Shown here piece after piece: positions 2,444 through 12,543 of a DNA stretch of 34,051 nt (the first letter of the stretch is position 1; each line of letters starts with the position of its first letter). A program made the translations under genes and the position numbers. The stretch lies in the NCBI GenBank assembly GCA_020848935.1, contig JADLHF010000253.1, positions 1-34,051 of the forward strand, in the 5' to 3' direction. Source of the DNA: Acetobacteraceae bacterium. Lineage in GTDB: Bacteria > Pseudomonadota > Alphaproteobacteria > Acetobacterales > Acetobacteraceae. The notes beneath the pieces were generated by a model, which saw only the letters and a program-made list of their open reading frames with translations, was not told where the DNA came from and made no database searches.

Positions 2444-2719
2444 TCAATCGTATTCGATTTCGATCTTCATGGGGCGGAGGGTCGCCGGATCAAAGGTGCC
2501 CTCATAGCGATCGCCTTTGTCATTCCTGGCATGAACCCGATAGCATCCGTCCTTGGTCCTGATCCGCGTCACGCGCCAGCCCTCGGCCTCGACCTGCTGT
2601 TGCAGCGCGGAGCGTGGTTTCCAGTCGGCCAGCGGCACGTTGCAGCGCTGGTCCGCCAGGGCGGGTGCGGCACCGAAGGCGCCGATGAGCAGCCAGGTTG
2701 CGAGCGGTAGAAGTTTCAT
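2444..2719 (-). CDS. Small exported PepSY-domain protein
   Basis: The ATG at 2719 gives 91 residues, with an AGGA about 10 nt upstream. Residues 1-22 form a Sec signal peptide (MKLLPLATWLLIGAFGAAPALA) that leaves a mature domain of about 69 residues. The mature part shows the PepSY pattern: a C-x-VP-x-ADW start, a GWRVTRIRTKDGCYRVHA strand region with a second Cys, and an FDPATL-type end. The two cysteines could form a disulfide. Such proteins are often encoded beside two-component systems and are thought to be periplasmic modulators; their biochemical role is not established. It is divergent from the response regulator and shares its control region, with a copy of the GTTCAGC-N5-GTCAG box 50 nt before its start. 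An upstream in-frame ATG at 2764 would overlap that box and is unlikely. Confidence 0.8.
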   Translation of the reverse strand: MKLLPLATWLLIGAFGAAPALADQRCNVPLADWKPRSALQQQVEAEGWRVTRIRTKDGCYRVHARNDKGDRYEGTFDPATLRPMKIEIEYD

Positions 2720-2768
2720 GATGCGGCATCCTGTCGGTTGGGCGACGATGGGACAATGCCACAACGAC

Positions 2769-2813
2769 CTGACAGCAAGCTGAACGCGGCGCCGATGTTC
2801 AGCTTGTCGTCAG
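2769..2813. promoter_or_regulatory. Paired response-regulator boxes in the PepSY/regulator divergent promoter
   Basis: Two 17-nt arms form an inverted repeat matching at 15 of 17 positions. The left arm at 2769-2785 reads CTGACAGCAAGCTGAAC and the right arm at 2797-2813 reads GTTCAGCTTGTCGTCAG, separated by 11 nt. Each arm read outward is GTTCAGC-N5-GTCAG, in which TCAG recurs every 11 bp, the spacing typical of OmpR/PhoB-type regulators. The arms point toward the PepSY gene (minus) and the regulator gene (plus). Each is followed after 10 nt by a -10-like hexamer: CATTGT at 2758-2753 and TATCCG at 2824-2829. Binding by the adjacent regulator is inferred. Confidence 0.6.
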
Positions 2814-2860
2814 CATGGCGGAGTATCCGCGACGGCGAGGCTGGCTGGGGGCGGCGTTTC

Positions 2861-3568
2861 ATGCGCGTTCTGTTGATCGAAGATGACCCGATCCTGGGGG
2901 CGGCGGTGCGCGACCAGATCGCGGCGGACGGGCATACCGTCGATTGGGCAACCCGCCTGGACCTGGCGCGCGACTGCGTGGCCACCGTGACCTACGGGCT
3001 GGTGCTGCTGGACCTGATGCTGCCGGACGGGCGGGGCCTCGACTTCCTGAAGGCCCGGCGCGCGGCGCGGGATTCAACGCCGGTGATCATCCTGACGGCG
3101 CGCGACCAGATATCGGACCGGATTGCCGGGCTCAACGCCGGGGCGGACGACTACCTTGTCAAGCCGTTCGACCTCGCCGAGCTGTCGGCCCGCATCGGCG
3201 CGGTGGCGCGGCGCTATGCCGGCAGCCCGAACCCGCTGGTCGAGATCGGCGACCTCGCCATCGACATGGCCACGCGCATGATCCACCGTGGCGGGGTGCC
3301 GGTTGCGCTGACCGCGCGCGAGTGGGTGGTGTTCGAGGCCTTCCTGCAGCGCCCCGGCGCCCTGCTGTCCAAGGCGCAGATCGAGGAATGGCTTTACTCC
3401 TTCGACGCCGAGGTCGAGAGCAACACCATCGAGGTCTATATTGGCCGCATCCGCCGCAAACTCGGCCATGACATCATCGAGACCGTGCGCGGCATGGGGT
3501 ATCGTCTGGGCCGGAAGCTGCGCGAGGGCAGGGCAGCCGATCAGCCGCGGAACGCGAATCCGCCATGA
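2861..3568 (+). CDS. OmpR/PhoB-family response regulator
   Basis: This 235-residue regulator has a receiver domain (about 1-115) with the acidic pair E7/D8-D9, phospho-acceptor D51, T79 and K101. A winged-helix DNA-binding domain follows (about 125-220), with SNTIEVYIGRIRRKLG and the GMGYRLG end typical of QseB/PmrA/TctD-like members. I chose ATG at 2861 because MRVLLIEDD is the normal receiver start. The longer frame from TTG at 2738 would run through the paired operator. Its 3' end overlaps the kinase start (ATGA). It probably autoregulates and controls the PepSY and DUF2271 genes through the 17-bp boxes. Confidence 0.92.
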   Translation: MRVLLIEDDPILGAAVRDQIAADGHTVDWATRLDLARDCVATVTYGLVLLDLMLPDGRGLDFLKARRAARDSTPVIILTARDQISDRIAGLNAGADDYLVKPFDLAELSARIGAVARRYAGSPNPLVEIGDLAIDMATRMIHRGGVPVALTAREWVVFEAFLQRPGALLSKAQIEEWLYSFDAEVESNTIEVYIGRIRRKLGHDIIETVRGMGYRLGRKLREGRAADQPRNANPP

Positions 3569-4926
3569 GGACCGGCCGCGCGCGGCGACACAGCCTGCAG
3601 CGTCGCCTGGGGCTGGGCCTGGCCGCCGGGGTGACCGCGCTCTGGGTTGCGGGCGCCGTGGCAGCGGGGCTGATCCTGCGCGGCGAGATCGATGCGTTGT
3701 TCGACAGCGCATTGCAGGAGGTCGCCCAGCGCATCCTGCCGCTCGCCTATAGCGAGGTGCTGAGCAGCGATCCCGTGGTTGACGGCGAAAGCCTCGGCGA
3801 TCGGCTGCCGGCGGTGCTGCCGCATGCGGAGTCCATCACCTATATCGTGCGCGATGGCAGCGCGCGCGTGCTGCTGCGGTCGCACGACGCCGATCCATCC
3901 GCCTTCCCGGCGACGCTGCAGCCGGGCTTCCATGATACGCCGAGCCTTCGCCTGTACACCGAAGGCGCCGTGCAGGGCACGCTGTTCGTCACCGCGGCCG
4001 AGCCGAAACAGCACCGGCGCACGGTCACGCTGGAGGCGGCTGGCATGCTGCTCTGGCCGCTGGCGCTGATGCTGCCGCTCAGCCAGCTGGGGGTATGGGC
4101 GCTGGCCCGCTACACCCTGCGGCCGGTGCGCGCTTTGCAGGGCGAGATCGAGGCGCGCGGTCACGGCAATCTTTCGCCGGTCGGCACGGTGGGGTTGCCC
4201 GCCGAGTTCAATCCGGTTGCCGACGCGGTCAACAGGCTGATCGCGCGGCTGCACCGCGCCCTGGCGGCCGAGCGGGGTTTCACCGCGAGCAGCGCGCACG
4301 AATTGCGCACACCGGTTGCCGCGGCCCTGGCCCAGACCCAGCGCCTGGTGGCCGAACTGCCCGACGGGCCGTTGCGGGCACGCGCGCGCTCGGTCGAGAC
4401 GGCCTTGCGCCAGCTGTCGCGGCTGTCGGAGAAACTGCTCCAACTCGCCAAGGCCGAGGGCGGATCGTTGCTGGCCGAAACGCCCCAGGATCTCGCGCAG
4501 GTGCTGCGGCTGGTGGTCGACGACCTGCGCCATGACCGAGCCGGTGCCGTCGATCTGGAAATCGCGCTTCCGTCGCGCGGGCAGTTCCTCTCGTCGATGG
4601 ATGCGGATGCCTTTGCGATCCTGGCACGCAATTTGATCGAGAATGCCCTGAAGCACGGCGCCCCGGACCGGCCGGTGGCGGTCACGCTGACCGATGGCGG
4701 GCTGCTGGGGGTGACGAATGACGGCCCGGTCGTCGCGCCGGAGACACTGGCCCGCCTCAGGCGGCCATTCGAGCGTGGCGTGACGGCGGCCACCGGCTCG
4801 GGCCTGGGCCTGGCCATCGCCGAGGCGATCGCCGCCGGCACGGGCACGGAGCTGGAACTGCGCTCGCCGGCCCCGGGCCGGAGCTGCGGGTTCGAGGCGC
4901 GGGTGCAATTGCCCGCCGGCAACTGA
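3565..4926 (+). CDS. QseC/TctE-like sensor histidine kinase
   Basis: This 453-residue membrane kinase has TM1 at about 15-38, a periplasmic sensor region (about 39-155) of the short two-component sensor type, and TM2 at about 158-180. A linker leads to the dimerisation helix with H245 in SSAHELRTPVAA. The catalytic domain has an N-box (NLIENALKHG) and a G-box (GSGLGLAIAEAIAAG). It starts inside the regulator stop codon, so the pair is co-translated. The input signal cannot be read from the sequence. By position it should phosphorylate the preceding regulator and control the PepSY/DUF2271/ApbE redox genes. Metal or redox stress is a plausible signal but only a guess. Confidence 0.9.
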   Translation: MRTGRARRHSLQRRLGLGLAAGVTALWVAGAVAAGLILRGEIDALFDSALQEVAQRILPLAYSEVLSSDPVVDGESLGDRLPAVLPHAESITYIVRDGSARVLLRSHDADPSAFPATLQPGFHDTPSLRLYTEGAVQGTLFVTAAEPKQHRRTVTLEAAGMLLWPLALMLPLSQLGVWALARYTLRPVRALQGEIEARGHGNLSPVGTVGLPAEFNPVADAVNRLIARLHRALAAERGFTASSAHELRTPVAAALAQTQRLVAELPDGPLRARARSVETALRQLSRLSEKLLQLAKAEGGSLLAETPQDLAQVLRLVVDDLRHDRAGAVDLEIALPSRGQFLSSMDADAFAILARNLIENALKHGAPDRPVAVTLTDGGLLGVTNDGPVVAPETLARLRRPFERGVTAATGSGLGLAIAEAIAAGTGTELELRSPAPGRSCGFEARVQLPAGN

Positions 4927-4942
4927 GTGGACTCGCCCGGCG

Positions 4943-4959
4943 GTTCAGCGCAGTGTCAG
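4943..4959 (+). promoter_or_regulatory. Third response-regulator box, upstream of the DUF2271 gene
   Basis: GTTCAGCGCAGTGTCAG matches the paired boxes at 2769-2813 as GTTCAGC-N5-GTCAG, again with TCAG repeated at 11 bp. It ends 50 nt before the DUF2271 ATG and is followed after 10 nt by CATCTC (4970-4975), the same geometry as at the PepSY and regulator promoters. This suggests the DUF2271-reductase-apbE genes have their own regulated promoter inside the locus. Confidence 0.5.
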
Positions 4960-5008
4960 CCTGGGCGTGCATCTCTGCGGCATCACCACGCGATGCAGGA
5001 GAGACACC

Positions 5009-5494
5009 ATGAACAAGATCGCCGCCACGCTCGGCCTGGCCACCACCCTGGCGGTTCCGGCACTGGCGCTCGCCCCCAAGGCGGAGGCGCGGACCGTCAC
5101 GCTGACCACGCAGCTTCGGCCGTATGACGGCGATGGGGCCTATCTGGCCATCTACCTGACCGACGCACGGGGGAAATTCCATTCCACCCTGCGCGTTGCC
5201 GGGTCGAAGGCCAAGTACTACAAGCACCTGCGCGACTGGGCGCGCGGCCGCACCGCGGAGGCGGGGCGGATCGACGGCATCACCGGCGCCAGCGTGGGAA
5301 GCGGCCAGTCGCTGCGCGCCAGCGTCGAGATTGCCGATGCGCTGATCGATGCCGGCTACCAGATCCGGATCGACACCGCCGTCGAGGACGGGCGCGACAA
5401 TCCGTCCGAGGTGGTCGTGCCGCTCACCGCCGCCGCTTCGGGCAAGCCTGTCGCCGGGCGCGGCTATGTCGCCGCGTTCCGGTTCGACATGTGA
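5009..5494 (+). CDS. Exported DUF2271-family protein with a predicted covalent FMN site
   Basis: The ATG at 5009 has a good ribosome-binding site (AGGAG, 7 nt upstream) and gives 161 residues. Residues 1-27 are a Sec-type signal peptide ending AEA, so the mature protein should be periplasmic. The body fits DUF2271 (predicted periplasmic proteins), with a YLAIYLTD strand and a YYKHLRDW segment. D89-G-I-T-G-A-S95 matches the D-x2-(S/T)-G-A-(S/T) motif that ApbE enzymes flavinylate in NqrC/RnfG-type proteins, with S95 as the expected FMN acceptor. An apbE gene ends the same gene string, which supports this. Likely role: periplasmic flavin electron carrier fed by the downstream reductase. The family name is recalled from sequence features, not from a search. 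Confidence 0.78.
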   Translation: MNKIAATLGLATTLAVPALALAPKAEARTVTLTTQLRPYDGDGAYLAIYLTDARGKFHSTLRVAGSKAKYYKHLRDWARGRTAEAGRIDGITGASVGSGQSLRASVEIADALIDAGYQIRIDTAVEDGRDNPSEVVVPLTAAASGKPVAGRGYVAAFRFDM

Positions 5495-5515
5495 TCGTGC
5501 GGCAGGACAGATCCG

Positions 5516-7732
5516 ATGATACGCCGCCTGCATTCGCTGCCGGGCCTGTTCGCCGCGGTGCTGATCGCAACCCTGGCCTTGACCGGCGCCTTCCTGGCGT
5601 TCGACTCGGTGCAGGAGCGCGCCGGCGCCACGGTGCCGCCATCCGGACAGGTCAGCGTCGCCGCCATCGCGGCGGCGGTCCAGGCCCGCTATCCCGAGGT
5701 GGAACGGCTCGTCAGGACCGCGTCGGGGTCGGTCATCGCCTATTACTTCGAGGCCGACCGGCCGGGCGCCGTTCTGGTCGATCCGCTGACCGGCGGGCCG
5801 ATTGCCCCGCATGAGCCGTCGAACCTGGCGCGGACCATCACCAACCTGCACCGGTCGTTCCTGGCCGGCGATGCCGGGCGGGCGGCGGCCGGGTTGGGGG
5901 CATTGGCCATGCTCGCGCTATGCGTTTCCGGGGCCGTTCTGCTTGCCGGGCACCTTGGCGGCTGGAAGGCGCTGCTGCGCCCGAGCCGGGGGACGATGGC
6001 GCAGCGGCTGCACTGCGAACTGGGGCGGGCGGCATTTGCCGGGTTGACGCTCTCCGCGCTGACCGGGGTCTACATGTCACTGGCCACATTCGGCATCGTG
6101 CCGGATGGCGACTCCGATCGACCTGCGCCAGCCCTGGAATCCAGCGCGGGGGTTCGGGTGCCGGTTGCCGAACTGGCGGCACTGCGGGCGGTTGACCTGA
6201 ACGATCTGCGCGAACTCGCCTTTCCCGCCATCACCGACCCGGGCGACACCTATGCGCTGACCACCGCGCAGGGCGCCGGCGAGATCGATGCCGCCACCGG
6301 GCAGCTGCTCGGCTTCACACCGCATGGCCTGGCGCGCCGGTTCTACGAGACGATCTATCTTCTGCACACGGGCCAGGGCGCCTGGCCGCTTGCGCTGCTG
6401 CTGGGCGCGTCCGCGCTGGCCGCGCCGGTGCTGGCCGGCGCCGGGGCGCTGCTGTGGTGGCGCCGCCGGGGTGCCCAGCCGAGGATCGCCGGCAACGTGG
6501 CGCCGCAGACGGCCGACACGATCATCCTGGTCGGCAGCGAGGGCAACAGCACCTGGAGCTTTGCCGCCACGCTGCACGCGGCACTGACAGCGGCGGGCCA
6601 TCGGGTCCATGCCGCGCCGATGAATGCCCTGGCGGCGGAGTACGGCGGGGCGGAACGCGTGCTGATCCTCGCGGCAACATATGGCGATGGCGATGCGCCG
6701 GCTTCGGCAAAGCTGTTCGCCCGGCGTCTGGCGGCGTCGAAGATGCGCCTTCCCGTCGCGGTGCTCGGCTTCGGGGACCGCGGTTTTCCGCGGTTCTGCC
6801 AGTTCGCCGAAGAGGTCTCCGCCATGCTGTCTGCCAGGGGCTGGCCGATGCTGATCGCGCCCGTGCTGATCGACCGGCAATCCGTGCAGGATTTCGCGCA
6901 GTGGGGCCAGGCGCTCGGCGCCGCGATCGGCACGAAGCTGGACCTGGTCCATGTCGCCGCGCGCCCGAAGACGGTCCGCTTGGTCCTGGCCGACCGCGTG
7001 GACTATGGCGCCGAGACGCAGGCGCCGACGGCGATACTGCGCTTCGTGCCGCCCCCGGTGGATCCGCTATCGGGGGTCTGGCGCCGCTGGCGCACGCCGC
7101 GGTTGCCGCGCTTCGTGGCCGGCGATCTCGTTGGCATCCTGGCGCCCGGCGCCGAAATGCCGCGGTTCTACTCGCTCGCCTCCGCCACGATGGATGGGGT
7201 GCTGGAGATCTGCGTCCGCAAGCAGCCCGGCGGCGTGTGCTCGGGCTTCCTGCATGCGTTGCAACCGGGGGATGCGATCGCGGCGTTCATCCGGCCCAAC
7301 CCGCGCTTTCGCCCCGCCGCCGGCAAGGCACCCTTGATCCTGATCGGCGCGGGTGCGGGGATTGCGCCCCTGGCCGGCTTCATCCGCCACAACCGGGCGC
7401 GGCGCCCGGTGCATCTCTATTGGGGCGGCCGCCATCCGGCGTCCGACTTTCTCTACGAGGCGGAGCTCAACGGGTTCATGGCCGACAAGCGCCTGGCCCA
7501 TCTGGCCACGGCATTCTCCCGCGCCCCCGGCGGCAGCCATGTGCAGGGTCGGCTGGCCTTGGATGCGGCGGAACTGCGCAGCCTCATCCAACGCGGCGCG
7601 CAGGTGATGGTGTGCGGCGGGCGCGACATGGCGGCCGGCGTGGCGCGGACGATCGACTCCCTGATCCGGCCATTGGGCTTCGATCTCCGCACCTTGAGGA
7701 TGGAGGGCCGCTATCTTGAAGATGTCTACTGA
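5516..7732 (+). CDS. PepSY-TM / flavodoxin / ferredoxin-NADP reductase-type fusion (transmembrane flavo-oxidoreductase)
   Basis: This 738-residue fusion begins with a PepSY-associated membrane module (about 1-320). It has four likely TM helices (about 8-30, 120-143, 170-193, 290-313) and histidines H112, H166 and H284 beside or between them, which are candidate haem ligands. A flavodoxin-like domain follows (about 333-475; GSEGNST from G340, then ATYGDGDAPASA), then a CysJ/P450-reductase-type FAD domain (RFYSLAS from R550) and an NAD(P)-binding domain (GAGAGIAPLAGF from G611). The order implies electron flow from NAD(P)H via FAD and FMN to the membrane module and on to a periplasmic acceptor, plausibly the DUF2271 protein encoded 21 nt upstream. 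The direction of flow and the haem content are inferred. The gene overlaps the apbE start. Confidence 0.85.
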   Translation: MIRRLHSLPGLFAAVLIATLALTGAFLAFDSVQERAGATVPPSGQVSVAAIAAAVQARYPEVERLVRTASGSVIAYYFEADRPGAVLVDPLTGGPIAPHEPSNLARTITNLHRSFLAGDAGRAAAGLGALAMLALCVSGAVLLAGHLGGWKALLRPSRGTMAQRLHCELGRAAFAGLTLSALTGVYMSLATFGIVPDGDSDRPAPALESSAGVRVPVAELAALRAVDLNDLRELAFPAITDPGDTYALTTAQGAGEIDAATGQLLGFTPHGLARRFYETIYLLHTGQGAWPLALLLGASALAAPVLAGAGALLWWRRRGAQPRIAGNVAPQTADTIILVGSEGNSTWSFAATLHAALTAAGHRVHAAPMNALAAEYGGAERVLILAATYGDGDAPASAKLFARRLAASKMRLPVAVLGFGDRGFPRFCQFAEEVSAMLSARGWPMLIAPVLIDRQSVQDFAQWGQALGAAIGTKLDLVHVAARPKTVRLVLADRVDYGAETQAPTAILRFVPPPVDPLSGVWRRWRTPRLPRFVAGDLVGILAPGAEMPRFYSLASATMDGVLEICVRKQPGGVCSGFLHALQPGDAIAAFIRPNPRFRPAAGKAPLILIGAGAGIAPLAGFIRHNRARRPVHLYWGGRHPASDFLYEAELNGFMADKRLAHLATAFSRAPGGSHVQGRLALDAAELRSLIQRGAQVMVCGGRDMAAGVARTIDSLIRPLGFDLRTLRMEGRYLEDVY

Positions 7733-8672
7733 CCCTGTGATCGACGCCCGCCGACCGGACCGGCTTGTGCGGCGCAGCTTGAACGGCACGACGATGGGCA
7801 CCCGCTATGCGGCGGTGTTCTATGCGCCGGCAACGTTGTGCACCGAAACGCTGGCAGCCGCGCTGTTTGCGGCCGTGGACCGCGTCGACCGGCAGATGTC
7901 GGGCTGGAAACCCTCCTCGGACCTCAACCGCCTGAATGCGGCGCCGGTCGGCGCCTGGCTGGAATTGCCGCCGGAACTGCTGGCGGTGCTGGCGGAAGCG
8001 TTGCGGATCGGCGGGGCCAGTGGCGGTGCCTTCGACATCGGCGTCGGTTCGCTGGTCTCGGCCTGGGGGTTCGGTCCGGCTGCCCGGGCGCCTGACCCGC
8101 AGCTGATCCGTGCCGCCGCCGGGCCGCGCGCGCCCACGATGGCGGCGCTGCAAGTCGATGTGGCGGGGTGGCGCGCCCGCAAGGCGGCGCCGCTGGCGCT
8201 CGATCTGTCGGGTATTGCCAAGGGCTTCGGCGTGGACGAGATGGCGCGGGTCATGGACGGATACGGCATCGCCTCCTGGCTGGTCGGAATCGATGGCGAA
8301 ATGCGCGCGCGCGGCGCGAAGCCGGATGGCGAAGCCTGGGCGGTGGCGCACGAACGCCCGGACCGCCATGCCCGCGGCGCGATGGGCGTGATCGAGCTGT
8401 CGGACATGGCCATCGCGACCTCGGGCAACTACCGGCACTGGGTCGAGATGGACGGCCGCACCGTCTCCCACACGATGCAGCCCGGCACCAACGCCCCGCT
8501 CGAAAACGACATCGCCTCGGTGTCGGTGATTGCGCCGACCTGCATGGCGGCGGATGCCTGGGCGACCGCGCTGCTGGTGCGCGGCGTGGACGCGGGCCTG
8601 ACACTGGCCAAGATGCACGGGCTGGACGCGGTTTTCGTGCGCAACGACGGAACGGTCAGGTCCACGCTCTGA
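7722..8672 (+). CDS. apbE: FAD:protein FMN transferase
   Basis: This 316-residue ApbE-family enzyme transfers FMN from FAD onto Ser/Thr of target proteins. Visible family blocks are GTTMGTRY near the N-terminus, FDIGVGSLV, DLSGIAKGFGVDEMA, SGNYRHWVEMDG, and a C-terminal ADAWATALLV segment with the Mg-binding Asp. Two blocks vary: the usual GG-D/E is GIDGEM, and the usual H-x-x-D-P-x-T-G is SHTMQPGTNAP. The ATG at 7722 lies inside the reductase gene (11-nt overlap); a TTG two codons upstream is the alternative. No signal peptide or lipobox is visible, although the proposed DUF2271 substrate has a Sec signal, so where modification happens is unclear. Confidence 0.9.
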   Translation: MSTDPVIDARRPDRLVRRSLNGTTMGTRYAAVFYAPATLCTETLAAALFAAVDRVDRQMSGWKPSSDLNRLNAAPVGAWLELPPELLAVLAEALRIGGASGGAFDIGVGSLVSAWGFGPAARAPDPQLIRAAAGPRAPTMAALQVDVAGWRARKAAPLALDLSGIAKGFGVDEMARVMDGYGIASWLVGIDGEMRARGAKPDGEAWAVAHERPDRHARGAMGVIELSDMAIATSGNYRHWVEMDGRTVSHTMQPGTNAPLENDIASVSVIAPTCMAADAWATALLVRGVDAGLTLAKMHGLDAVFVRNDGTVRSTL

Positions 8673-8900: not shown

Positions 8901-10331
8901 CTAGGCGGCCTCATATCCCAGCACCGCCTTCACTTCGAGGAACTCGTCCAGCGCCCACTTGCCGTATTCGCGGCCATTGCCGGACTGCTTGTAGCCGCCG
9001 AACGGTGCCGCGGTGTCGCCGACGGGGTAGTTGATGTGGACACCGCCGGCGCGCATTTCGGACGCCACTCGGCGCGCATGCGCGAGGTCGCCCGACTGCA
9101 CATAGGCGGCCAGGCCGTACACCGTGTCGTTGGCCAGCTTGATCGCCTCGGCCTCGTCCTTGTACGGCAGGATGGCGAGCACCGGCCCGAAGATCTCCTC
9201 GCGGGCGATGGTCATGTCGTTGCGCACGCCGGCGAAGACCGTCGGGCGGACATAGTAGCCGCGGTTGAGGTGTTCGGGCCGGCCGGTGCCGCCGGTGACC
9301 AGCTCCGCGCCCTCGTCGATCCCGGCCTGGATCAGGCGTTGGATCTTGTTGAACTGCGCCTCGCTGACCACCGGGCCCAGGTTGGTCTTGGGGTCGGAAA
9401 CGCTGCCGACCACGAGGTTTTCGGCCGTCGTCTTGGCGATCGCCTTGGCCTCGTCATGCCGGTCCGCCGGCACGAACATGCGGGTCGGCGCGTTGCAGGA
9501 CTGGCCGGAATTGCCCATCATGCCCAGCACGCCCTTGGCGACGGCCGTCGGGAAATCGGCGTCCGGCAGCAGGATGTTGGCGGATTTGCCGCCCAGCTCC
9601 TGCGCCACGCGCTTGACCGTCACGGCGGCGGCCTGGGCCACCAGGATGCCGGCGCGGGTGGAGCCGGTGAAGGACATCATGTCGATATCCGGGTGCGACG
9701 ACATGGCGGCACCGACAACGCCGCCCTCGCCCTGGATCATGTTGTAGACGCCCTTGGGCACGCCGGCGGCATGCATCACCTCGGAAAAGATGATGGCGTT
9801 CAGCGGCGCGATCTCGGACGGCTTCAGCACCATGGTGCAGCCGGCGGCGATGGCGGGCGCCACCTTGCAGACGATCTGGTTGATCGGCCAGTTCCACGGC
9901 GTGATCAGGCCGACGACGCCGATCGCCTCCTTGGCGATCATCGTGGTGCCCTGCACTTCCTCGAACCTGTAGCTCTCCAGCACCTGGATCATGCGGGTCA
10001 GGTGGGCGATGCCGGTGGCGGACTGGCGCTCGTAGGACAGGGTCTTGGGCGCGCCCATCTCGCGCGACAGGATGTCGGCGATGTCCTGGCGGCGCTTGGT
10101 GTACTCGGCCAGGATGGCGCGCAGCAGGTCCAGCCGCTCGGCGCGGGTGGTGCGCGAGAAGGCGGGGAAGGCCGCCTTGGCGGCAGCCACCGCGCGATCC
10201 ACGTCGGCAGCGCCACCGAGGGCAATCCTGGTGAAGGCTTCCTCCGTCGACGGATCGATCACATCGAACAGGGCAGGTTGCAGCGGGGCGACCCACGCCC
10301 CGTTCACGTAGTGCTGCTGTTCATGCGGCAT
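8901..10331 (-). CDS. NAD(P)-dependent aldehyde dehydrogenase
   Basis: This 476-residue ALDH superfamily enzyme oxidises an aldehyde to its acid. Key features are TPWNWPIN (substrate/cofactor Asn region), FTGSTRAG (dinucleotide turn), general base E245 in QELGGK and nucleophile C279 in NSGQSCNAP. The E-to-C spacing of 34 residues is the family norm. The closing PFGGYKQSGNGREYG block is intact. The ATG at 10331 has a strong AGGAGG about 8 nt upstream; the frame extending to 10439 is Arg/Pro-rich and crosses the likely promoter. The substrate is unknown, and the neighbouring catabolic genes suggest carbon-source breakdown. It converges on apbE. Confidence 0.92.
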   Translation of the reverse strand: MPHEQQHYVNGAWVAPLQPALFDVIDPSTEEAFTRIALGGAADVDRAVAAAKAAFPAFSRTTRAERLDLLRAILAEYTKRRQDIADILSREMGAPKTLSYERQSATGIAHLTRMIQVLESYRFEEVQGTTMIAKEAIGVVGLITPWNWPINQIVCKVAPAIAAGCTMVLKPSEIAPLNAIIFSEVMHAAGVPKGVYNMIQGEGGVVGAAMSSHPDIDMMSFTGSTRAGILVAQAAAVTVKRVAQELGGKSANILLPDADFPTAVAKGVLGMMGNSGQSCNAPTRMFVPADRHDEAKAIAKTTAENLVVGSVSDPKTNLGPVVSEAQFNKIQRLIQAGIDEGAELVTGGTGRPEHLNRGYYVRPTVFAGVRNDMTIAREEIFGPVLAILPYKDEAEAIKLANDTVYGLAAYVQSGDLAHARRVASEMRAGGVHINYPVGDTAAPFGGYKQSGNGREYGKWALDEFLEVKAVLGYEAA

Positions 10332-10415
10332 GTCGAGATCCTCCTGTGGGTGACGGGTCCGGTCGGGCGCGGCGTTCGATCGCCAGCCGCTCCCTCGTCC
10401 CGGCGGTGTGAACGT

Positions 10416-10444
10416 TATATACATATGGACACAGCGCAACGCAA
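10416..10444 (-). promoter_or_regulatory. Candidate promoter for the aldehyde dehydrogenase
   Basis: On the minus strand TTGCGT (10444-10439) and TATATA (10421-10416) are separated by 17 nt. They lie in a short AT-rich island that stands out from the GC-rich surroundings. A start site near 10409 would leave a leader of about 78 nt. The -35 match is weak and the -10 match is fair. Confidence 0.4.
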
Positions 10445-10831: not shown

Positions 10832-12385
10832 TTACGGCAGGTAGGGCAGGCCGGGCACCCCGACCTGGCTCTGCAACAGCCGCTGCGCATCGTGCACGAA
10901 CTCCACCATCTTCTGCCGCGTGGTGCGCGGGTCGATGATGTCCTGCCCGGTCGACTCGGCGGTCAGGAACGGCGAGGCCAGGGCCTGCAACCGCGCCTCG
11001 ATCTCGGCCTTCTTCGCCGCGGGGTCGGGCGCATTGGCGATCTCGCGCCGATACGCCGCCGCCACGCCGCCGGTGATGTGCATGCTGCCCCAGTTGGCGG
11101 ACGGCCAGGCGTAGCGGCGGAACATGCCGGAGGGGCGGTGGTGGCACTGCCCGGCCACCCCGTAGAGCTTGCCCAGCACGATGGTCAGCCACGGCATCCG
11201 CGTGGAGCATACGGTCGCCACCATCCGCGCCCCGGCGCGCTCGATGCCCTGGCGCTCCGCCTCCGGCCCCACCATGAATCCGGGCTCGTCGGCCAGCGAG
11301 ATCAGCGGCAGGTGGAACAGGTCGCACAACCCCATCAGCCGCATCGCCTTCGACCCGGCCGCGACGTCGGTGGAGCCGCCATTGTAGCGCGGGTTGTTGA
11401 TCATGATGCCGACCGGGAAGCCGTCCACCCGTGCGAGGCCAAGGATGCGCGCACGGCCATAGAGCGGGGAGATCTCGAAGAAGCTGCCCTTGTCCACCAC
11501 GGCGTTCAGCACCTTGCGCGCGTCGTAGGTGGCGCGCTTGTTCTTCGGCATGGCGCTGAGCAGGGATTCCTCGACACGCTCGGGGTCGTCGGTGATCGGC
11601 CCGCGCGGCGCCATTTCGCCGACACTGGAGGGCAGGTAGGACAGGAAGCGGCGGATCTGGTCGAAGGCGTCCTGTTCGGTTTCGGCGACGTTGTCGATGC
11701 AGCCCGAGATCCTGGTGTGGATGTGGTCGCCGCCGAGCTCCTCCTTGGTGATATCCAGGTCGAGCGCCGCCTTCACCACCGGCGGGCCGCCCGGGAAGAT
11801 CTGGGAGATGCCTTTGACCATGACATTGAAATGGGCGAGGCAGGCCTGGATCGCCGGCAGCCCGGCGACCGAGCCGAGCACGGCGGAGACCGAGGGCACC
11901 AGGTTCAGCAGCTTGACCTCCAGATGGGTCCACTGGTTGCCGTCGGGCAGGTAGGTGCGGCCGTAATCCTCGAAGGTGCGCACCGAGCCGCCGGCGGCGT
12001 CGAGCAGGCGGATGAAGGGCAGCCGCCACTCGATGGCGCGCTCGGCGGCCGACAGCTCCTGGCCCATGCCGCCATGGTTGCCGCCGGAGCCGCCGCGCAC
12101 GGTGAAGTCGCCGGCGGTGGCCACCACCTTGCGGCCGTCGAGCTTCATCGTGCCGGTGACGAAGGCCTTCGGCAGGAAATGCTTGAGCTTGCCACCCTCA
12201 TAGGTGCCGTGGCCGGTCAGGCCCATGAACTCGTTGAAGCTGCCGGGATCGGCCAGGGCTGCGATGCGCTCGCGCACCAGCAGCTTGCCGTTCTGGCGCT
12301 GGCGGGCGATGCCCTCGGCCCCGCCCATCGCTTCGGCCATCGTCTGGCGCTGCTTGAGCTCGTCGATTTCTGCCTGCCAGGACAT
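10832..12385 (-). CDS. Acyl-CoA carboxylase carboxyltransferase (biotin-dependent, beta-type)
   Basis: This 517-residue crotonase-fold carboxyltransferase has the tandem N and C domains of the PccB/AccD-like family. Landmarks are RERIAALADPGSF, GGSGGNHGGMG, the GPPVVKAAL acyl-CoA region, a central PLYGRARILGLARVDG, NNPRYNGGSTD, and a late MHITGGVAAAYRREIA segment. It should transfer CO2 from carboxybiotin to an acyl-CoA. No biotin carboxylase or biotin carrier gene is adjacent, so the partner is elsewhere or the enzyme works differently. The ATG at 12385 has GGAAGGA upstream; the frame extending to 12487 crosses the operator-like palindrome. It is divergent from the ThDP enzyme gene. Confidence 0.88.
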   Translation of the reverse strand: MSWQAEIDELKQRQTMAEAMGGAEGIARQRQNGKLLVRERIAALADPGSFNEFMGLTGHGTYEGGKLKHFLPKAFVTGTMKLDGRKVVATAGDFTVRGGSGGNHGGMGQELSAAERAIEWRLPFIRLLDAAGGSVRTFEDYGRTYLPDGNQWTHLEVKLLNLVPSVSAVLGSVAGLPAIQACLAHFNVMVKGISQIFPGGPPVVKAALDLDITKEELGGDHIHTRISGCIDNVAETEQDAFDQIRRFLSYLPSSVGEMAPRGPITDDPERVEESLLSAMPKNKRATYDARKVLNAVVDKGSFFEISPLYGRARILGLARVDGFPVGIMINNPRYNGGSTDVAAGSKAMRLMGLCDLFHLPLISLADEPGFMVGPEAERQGIERAGARMVATVCSTRMPWLTIVLGKLYGVAGQCHHRPSGMFRRYAWPSANWGSMHITGGVAAAYRREIANAPDPAAKKAEIEARLQALASPFLTAESTGQDIIDPRTTRQKMVEFVHDAQRLLQSQVGVPGLPYLP

Positions 12386-12415
12386 GGTGTTTTCCTTCCT
12401 CATCGCCCGCGCGGA

Positions 12416-12457
12416 ATTGTCGACAATAATTTGACGCCTGCCGGCGCCGCACCGCAA
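12416..12457 (-). promoter_or_regulatory. Carboxyltransferase promoter with palindromic operator
   Basis: On the minus strand TTGCGG (12457-12452) and TCAAAT (12434-12429) form a 17-nt-spaced promoter candidate. Immediately downstream is the perfect 12-bp palindrome ATTGTCGACAAT (12416-12427), placed where a repressor would block initiation. TTGT-n2-ACAA centres resemble sites of GntR/FCD-type repressors; that assignment is inference. A similar site lies before the ABC transporter genes. Confidence 0.45.
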
Positions 12458-12543
12458 GGGGCCGCGTGACCGGCAGCCGCCATTCACGCCGCCCGCCTTC
12501 CGTGCGACGATCCCGGCCGGGACAGGAAACCAAGGAGCAAGAC

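Follow-up and report, generated by a model that had tools for sequence, protein, structure and literature searches.

The locus and its genes

The window analysed here, a stretch of 34,051 nucleotides from a bacterium of the family Acetobacteraceae (contig JADLHF010000253.1 of assembly GCA_020848935.1), carries at positions 2444-8672 a candidate sensor-controlled system for moving electrons across the inner membrane. Pfam and NCBIfam profile matches assign the six neighbouring genes of this locus to PepSY_2, a response regulator (RR), a sensor histidine kinase (HK), DUF2271, a multidomain fusion and ApbE, and all six genes, with the domains that an earlier note made from the sequence alone had ascribed to them, are present. 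The PepSY gene (2444-2719, minus strand; PF13670, 1.8e-22) encodes a small exported protein of 91 amino acids and runs leftward from 2719, divergent from the RR gene. Its two cysteines are invariant in all 67 aligned homologues (67/67) and could conceivably form a disulfide switch that signals to the kinase. The RR, of the OmpR/PmrA class (235 amino acids; 2861-3568, plus strand; PF00072 and PF00486), and the HK, of the QseC/PmrB class (453 amino acids; 3565-4926, plus strand; HAMP, HisKA and HATPase_c), are encoded by genes with a four-base overlap (3565-3568).

The remaining three genes also lie on the plus strand. An exported DUF2271 protein of 161 amino acids, with the motif DGITGAS and predicted to carry flavin mononucleotide (FMN), is encoded at 5009-5494 (PF10029, 2.8e-34). 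It is followed at 5516-7732 by the fusion, a 738-amino-acid protein that joins PepSY_TM (PF03929), flavodoxin (PF00258) and a reductase for flavin adenine dinucleotide (FAD) and reduced nicotinamide adenine dinucleotide (phosphate) (NAD(P)H; PF00175); Pfam recognises PepSY_TM, Flavodoxin_1 and NAD_binding_1, and FAD_binding_6 stays under its cut-off. The flavin transferase ApbE (7722-8672; PF02424, 5.6e-76) has 316 amino acids from an ATG that overlaps the final codons of the gene for the fusion, and a TTG at 7716 is a possible alternative start.

Conservation of the locus

Relatives were collected by a scan of named genomes that used five fusions as queries, and the best 80 of 491 fusion relatives, together with the locus of genome G016 and the window, make up a set of 82 fusion loci that spans Alpha-, Beta- and Gammaproteobacteria. 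A regulator scoring above 240 bits and a kinase are present at 65 of these 82 loci, again in three proteobacterial classes, so that the neighbourhood is conserved outside the window's genome, one of the points on which the earlier note had let its reading stand or fall. Wherever a PepSY gene was found at the 65 RR-bearing loci it is divergent from the RR gene (59/59), in one of two layouts, with 14 loci resembling the window and 45 having PepSY lead the DUF2271 side. When the sensor pair is mapped on a tree built from the 82 fusions, 8 gains or losses must be assumed once three unclear loci are omitted, and 10 if these three are scored as lacking the pair (shuffled labels, 15.6).

Within the window's own family, DUF2271 exceeded the Pfam cut-off in 10 of the 249 genomes sampled, and four of these (the window's, G212, G005 with two copies, and G016) possess the fusion with the sensor pair; at the other six DUF2271 loci, of which about 3.4 kb each were read, ApbE was seen and the fusion, regulator and kinase were not. 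Humitalea rosea has two copies of the system (L028 and L029). A different cassette lies near the fusion and ApbE in L030, L031, L033 and L034, with another PepSY protein and a regulator only 41-42% like that of the window; in L033 (7700-10079) the PepSY protein belongs to PF03413 and a histidine kinase is present as well. Recruitment of a sensor pair seems to have happened more than once. The TTCAG box described below was not found at the different cassettes of these four loci.

A shared box at three promoters

The box that the earlier note had recognised as shared among these genes is present at the locus as three exact copies of TTCAG-N6-GTCAG: box 1, TTCAGCTTGCTGTCAG (2769-2784, minus strand), ahead of the PepSY gene; box 2, TTCAGCTTGTCGTCAG (2798-2813, plus strand), ahead of the RR gene; and box 3, TTCAGCGCAGTGTCAG (4944-4959, plus strand), ahead of the DUF2271 gene. 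When one mismatch was allowed, 5 matches were found against a mean of 1.02 in shuffles, a count of 5 being reached in 2 of 100 shuffles. The exact pattern occurs 8 times in the window's whole genome, 3 of them at the locus (reversed control, 0). Three of the five others (L002, L004 and L005) sit within genes or span gene ends, and for L001 and L003 only the local sequence was seen; a wide regulon in this genome is unsupported, the off-locus boxes read in context being those in or across gene ends.

Comparison across species strengthens the association considerably. In the upstream regions of the 65 RR-bearing loci, taken as the 200 bp before the PepSY, RR and DUF2271 genes, 153 exact boxes occur in 30,112 bp versus 7 in 1,205,356 bp elsewhere in the same loci, and these upstream regions contained no instance of the pattern with spacers of 4, 5, 7 or 8, of the reversed pattern, of swapped halves or of two permutations. 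The box is found in the expected promoters of 63/65 RR-bearing loci versus 3/17 other loci, in line with the earlier claim that the pair is dedicated to this locus. The three box-bearing exceptions without an RR are L089 and L090, in which a contig end cuts the region, and L058, which by eye has a transposase-like gene and the remnant of a ferric-reductase gene upstream; with these set aside the figures become 63/65 versus 0/14. In independent branch pairs, box and regulator changed in the same direction in 6 or 7 of 7 (sign test, p 0.016-0.031).

It is scarcely credible that the genes are mere neighbours and the box a chance or unrelated repeat. A pattern this short could arise by chance in this genome taken alone, but it accompanies the regulator in three proteobacterial classes, its spacer and its distance to the gene being fixed, and the PepSY gene is invariably divergent. 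Chance adjacency of the genes was rejected by the cross-species enrichment of the box together with the branch-pair test.

With respect to position, boxes precede the RR gene in 61/65 loci, the PepSY gene in 57/59 and the DUF2271 gene in 37/65, and among same-strand boxes before the RR gene 42/49 end 46-49 nt from its start. A consistent arrangement, box - 10 nt - TAnnnT, emerged from 90 dereplicated sites, and therefore the -35 region would coincide with the box. Judged from these positions, the box probably marks three promoters, those of the RR operon, of the PepSY gene and of the DUF2271-fusion-ApbE operon, and its placement there would suit an activator.

A search for the box plus the -10 element in 39 genomes returned 56 matches in 24 genomes (reversed control, 2). 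Sorted by hand from their coordinates, 50 of these belong to the locus and 5 lie elsewhere; the remaining 1 marks a second copy of the system (L138; G271 contig 29, 1-9000, Alcaligenaceae), whose fusion open reading frame (ORF) stops at 577 amino acids near the contig end. The regulon would appear to be mostly confined to a single locus, because 50/56 matches fall within it and five elsewhere. As to those five, one in Ciceribacter, away from its fusion locus (L139, 2996-4587), precedes genes for a fusion of cytochrome b561 with diheme cytochrome c (DHC) and for DUF1924 (SHP); two, in L140 near 4612 and L142 near 4305, are close to rdgC in two Alcaligenaceae and may be chance occurrences; one, in Polaromonas (L141), lies in a region without parts of the system; and one is on G268 contig 52.

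Identity of the sensor pair

The RR matched the NCBIfam model of PmrA best (202.5 bits, below the cut-off of 330), scored 179.8 bits against QseB (below the cut-off of 345) and had BasR as its best match in the PDB, and the HK matched QseC best (138.4 bits, below the cut-off of 475). PmrAB/BasSR and QseBC are the families closest to the pair, with scores well below the equivalog cut-offs and with partner genes that differ from those in the window; because these cut-offs were not reached, filing the pair as PmrAB or QseBC was ruled out. The PmrA box likewise differs from TTCAG-N6-GTCAG.

An ExxE motif occurs anywhere in the periplasmic stretch of 53/60 kinases, the window's being among the 60, and beside the first membrane helix in 40/60. 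In BqsS of Pseudomonas aeruginosa the second glutamate of ExxE is reported to be essential (PMC4682146; PMC12666569), whereas in the window's kinase the motif is not intact at the matching place, where EIDA stands; direct iron sensing by this kinase via ExxE is unsupported. BasS, PmrB and BqsS, whose classes are related to that of the window's kinase, have been named as iron sensors (PMC12666569); this and the ExxE of the 53 kinases speak for a metal as acceptor. The BqsR operator, TTAAG-N6-TTAAG, from which BqsR acts as an activator and of which one pentamer overlaps the -35 site in the dissected promoter, consists, like the box described here, of two pentamers repeated in the same direction with 6 bp between them (PMC4682146). 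BqsRS senses Fe2+ (PMC4682146; PMC12666569). Its operator differs in its letters from TTCAG-N6-GTCAG. For Salmonella, the cytochrome b561 gene STM1253, with STM1252, has been called PmrA-regulated and is activated by PreA (PMC2653508); the product of STM1252 is annotated as putatively cytoplasmic.

The predicted electron path

The middle part of the fusion is a flavodoxin domain, and its C-terminus resembles CysJ and P450 reductase. Within the membrane part, four histidines (H6, H112, H166 and H284) are invariant in 82/82 fusions, and the only PDB sequence matching this part at E values up to 10 was 7abw (E 1.2e-4, profile match), the PepSY structure FoxB described in a 2024 paper. By eye, H6, H112 and H284 lie opposite histidines of FoxB, in a weak match to 7abw whose single stretches have E values of 1.9 and 2.9. 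Conserved histidines of the PepSY_TM domain are reported to ligate two haems in FoxB of P. aeruginosa (PMC13038864). Because of the four invariant histidines and the match to FoxB, the electron chain in the window probably includes two haems, as judged from sequence. The chain drawn in the earlier note, from NAD(P)H through FAD, FMN and the membrane module to FMN on DUF2271, thus stands as the outline of a coherent electron-transfer locus but omits the haems.

The fusion shares its PepSY_TM domain with the metal reductases FoxB, FsrB, HiuB and CrpH. It differs from FoxB in that the electron donor of the latter is reported as unknown, whereas the fusion carries its own FMN and FAD/NAD(P)H domains, and in that a separate flavoprotein carrier follows.

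Flavinylation of DUF2271

The motif DGITGAS of the DUF2271 protein in the window conforms to [S/T]GA[S/T], and the strict flavinylation motif is kept in 76/82 DUF2271 proteins, its last serine in 82/82. A hydrophobic, Sec-like N-terminus is apparent in the window's protein by hydrophobicity and by eye, and an automated hydrophobicity cut called a signal-like N-terminus in 71/82; of the 11 proteins without a called signal, several were, by eye, trimmed past the signal by the script. A search for solved structures related to DUF2271 gave none that was convincing. Flavinylation of a DUF2271 homologue by ApbE has been reported (PMC8238504).

The ApbE encoded at these loci is less easily accommodated. 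No convincing export signal or lipobox was detected, by hydrophobicity and by eye, at any of the 59 loci whose ApbE ORF is complete; the ApbE of L027 and L080 passed the numeric threshold and were judged artefacts of segment cutting. Conversely, in the 21 genomes without ApbE at the locus as seen, 25/29 scored ApbE copies elsewhere were flagged as having an export signal (the 29 were scored from 31 matches, one having no locus and one, L210, being unscorable), and one of the four unflagged copies, L206 of Halomonas, is of the locus type by score and N-terminus. The window's genome has a single ApbE, that of the locus. Among twelve other genomes searched, a single ApbE was found in G249, G252, G254 and G260, two in G250, one per locus copy, and two or three matches in the remaining seven. 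The earlier proposal that ApbE places FMN on a periplasmic DUF2271 protein needs an extra assumption, since ApbE shows no export signal. Cytosolic ApbEs are known, and the examples given in a review act on cytosolic or intracellular substrates (PMC12052999).

These observations could be read as indicating that ApbE serves another, cytoplasmic substrate and that DUF2271 carries no bound flavin and assists the fusion simply as a redox or ligand-binding protein. The contrast between the signal-less ApbE of the locus and the signal-bearing copies elsewhere would fit such an arrangement, as would the lack of a second ApbE in the window's genome. However, neither the conservation of the flavinylation motif nor the overlap of the projected apbE start with the fusion gene, seen in 60/61 loci, would be expected from it, and an ApbE gene is present elsewhere in all of the genomes without ApbE at the locus as seen (21/21), although genes of this kind are common in any case; we regard it as quite unlikely. 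Under the favoured alternative, flavinylation of DUF2271 by the ApbE of the locus, the flavin would be attached before or during export, because ApbE itself seems to remain cytoplasmic.

The same cassette with other electron modules

The window's class, Alphaproteobacteria according to its named relatives, was represented by 385 genomes, and relatives of the kinase (E <1e-60; at most four candidates scored per genome) were found in 20 of them, counting that of the window. Among the 19 other kinase loci, 3 have the fusion, DUF2271 and ApbE, and 11 have cytochrome b561 directly after PepSY. With TTCAG allowed as the second half, the box is present in 8/11 of the cytochrome b561 loci and 3/3 of the fusion loci. 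The remaining five comprise L168, with PepSY only; L173, with a cytochrome b further away; and L179-L181, in which a regulator and kinase were found and neither PepSY nor an electron module was.

A further box lies past the cytochrome b561 gene in L171, L172 and L175. In L172 (10387-12917) it precedes genes assigned by Pfam to an EptA-type phosphoethanolamine transferase and PAP2, and L175 has genes that are similar by eye; EptA-type phosphoethanolamine transferase and PAP2 genes are classic kinds of PmrA target. In L026 (4053, minus strand), a box stands just ahead of a cytochrome b561 ORF that itself follows VIT1 in the direction of the regulator and kinase. Operons for SHP, diheme cytochrome c and cytochrome b are accompanied in some species by a kinase resembling QseC and a regulator (PMC2909971). 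Such SHP/DHC operons resemble the locus described here in placing a periplasmic electron-delivery module next to a QseC-like kinase, and in the relative L139 a TTCAG-N6-GTCAG box precedes one; they differ in that their carriers bind haem rather than flavin (PMC2909971), and neither DUF1924 nor DHC domains occur among the window's six proteins.

Neighbouring genes and the electron acceptor

Among 140 ORFs flanking the core at 38 of the 65 loci, the families met most often were Ferric_reduct (9), VIT1 (6), HAD hydrolase (6), a domain that occurs also in P-type ATPases, and E1-E2 ATPase (5), followed by sigma-54 domains and cytochrome b561 (3 each); these belong to the 25 flanking families shown of 116. 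Over all 82 loci, VIT1-like genes were found in 19-20, ferric-reductase-like genes in 16 and P-type ATPase genes in 10, in several bacterial families and unevenly. A metal acceptor, chiefly iron, is our best guess, favoured because ferric-reductase-like, VIT1 and P-type ATPase neighbours recur. In the window's genome, a weak VIT1 match, exactly at the cut-off, is present elsewhere.

The conduit might instead supply electrons for repairing periplasmic proteins whose methionines (as methionine sulfoxide) or thiols have been oxidised, in the manner of HprSR-MsrPQ, where HprSR controls MsrPQ, with metals acting only as the inducing stress. Cytochrome b561 directly after PepSY in 11/19 other kinase loci would make electrons, not metal transport, the common output, and the PepSY protein has its two invariant cysteines. 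Against this, no MsrP, Dsb or thioredoxin-like family occurs among the 25 flanking families shown of 116, and the recurrent neighbours are related to metals or iron reduction, which leaves repair an improbable role.

Also unlikely, in our estimate, is an assimilatory iron reductase serving uptake, like the PepSY/DUF2271/DUF4198 operons that Fur represses, but controlled by the sensor pair rather than by Fur. Neither FeoB nor DUF4198, nor a TonB receptor, appears among the same 25 families; the recurrent transporters, VIT1 and P-type ATPases, are often exporters; and PmrA-class sensors usually respond to iron excess. In favour of uptake, the core is built from the same parts as PepSY-like systems that have been linked to iron assimilation (PMC8238504; in Caulobacter the locus CCNA_03155-03159, PMC12004947). 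VIT1 was read as an importer in the 2021 survey of these systems (PMC8238504).

Next to the window's locus lie genes for a pyruvate-dehydrogenase-type E1 alpha (991-1974), an aldehyde dehydrogenase (8901-10439) and an MmdA-type carboxyltransferase (10832-12487), all on the minus strand and none reaching its NCBIfam cut-off among the matches listed; these are ordinary metabolic surroundings. Rfam and tRNA scans of the window gave no match.

Relation to known flavinylation systems

The electron-transfer core of PepSY_TM, DUF2271 and ApbE has already been described (Meheust 2021, PMC8238504). PepSY-like flavinylation systems have in common with the window PepSY_TM, in part with an NAD-binding domain, DUF2271 with [S/T]GA[S/T], and ApbE, and some of their clusters include VIT1 (PMC8238504). 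The window falls within this group, as its PF03929 protein is encoded with ApbE and DUF2271 and the target has a predicted signal peptide. It differs by the addition of the sensor pair, the exported PepSY_2 protein and the conserved box, by an ApbE without an export signal and by having neither DUF4198 nor TonB beside its genes. Fur is named as a regulator of PepSY-like systems in the survey, the main text of which contains neither 'histidine kinase' nor 'response regulator' and has 'two-component' only in the title of a reference (PMC8238504). The earlier suggestion that the combination may be undescribed fails for the core; it may hold for the joining of the core to a dedicated sensor pair and box, of which no description was found in the literature searched, supplements and subscription papers being outside its scope.

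A model for regulated electron delivery

Taken together, these findings lead us to propose, with a probability of about 0.6, that a PmrA/QseB-type pair switches on an inner-membrane electron conduit under envelope metal or redox stress. The small exported PepSY protein is the probable periplasmic partner of the sensor pair, and the RR, on comparative evidence, would activate the DUF2271-fusion-ApbE operon, its own operon and the PepSY gene via the box. From the protein families and invariant residues, electrons are predicted to pass from NAD(P)H to the FAD and then the FMN of the fusion's cytoplasmic half, from there to two b haems in its PepSY_TM half, and then to FMN on the outer DUF2271 protein. 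As final acceptor, for which the indications are weaker, an oxidised metal of the periplasm might serve, ferric iron being the likeliest candidate.

Several observations weigh against this model. With respect to regulation, a looser definition of the box raised the p value of the tree-corrected test to 0.25, which is not significant, and a box with one mismatch nevertheless occurs at four loci that lack this regulator (L034, L054, L067 and L105); because of such sites in 4/14 loci and the p value of the looser box, the tree-corrected support for a link between box and regulator appears real, not large. Two Lysobacter loci possess the sensor pair and no box, their best site being TTAAG-like with three mismatches. 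The box plus -10 element is absent from 15/39 genomes, including the window's nearest relatives G249, G250 and G252, and in the window itself the -10 elements match weakly, the TAnnnT pattern being fitted, by eye, by that of the PepSY gene alone. The window's kinase has EIDA at the place of ExxE, the rest of its periplasmic stretch being without ExxE by eye. The flavinylation step sits uneasily with an ApbE that shows no signal beside a substrate of the Sec type. As for a metal acceptor, 15/19 VIT1 loci belong to Pseudomonadaceae, the window has no VIT1, ferric-reductase-like or P-type ATPase neighbour, and no TonB receptor or Feo is found among the 25 flanking families shown of 116.

A broader and more tentative possibility is that PepSY, regulator, kinase and box form a portable cassette that senses the loss of periplasmic reducing power or metal stress. 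Its electron source would be exchangeable: in one case the NAD(P)H flavo-dihaem fusion with FMN-DUF2271, in others cytochrome b561, a ferric-reductase-like flavocytochrome, or cytochrome b together with SHP. Where flavin is used, the carrier would be flavinylated in the cytoplasm and exported by Sec with its cofactor attached. If true, cytoplasmic flavinylation followed by Sec export would be a new route to an exported covalent flavoprotein; the signal-less ApbE in any case raises the question of the site at which covalent flavin is added. PepSY-type flavin systems were found in 3040 genomes in the 2021 survey (PMC8238504), and when they are used is rarely known. The box-bearing promoters provide a handle on this question, as their inducer would reveal the role of the system, and PmrA/QseB-type envelope sensing would be tied to the delivery of electrons across the membrane.

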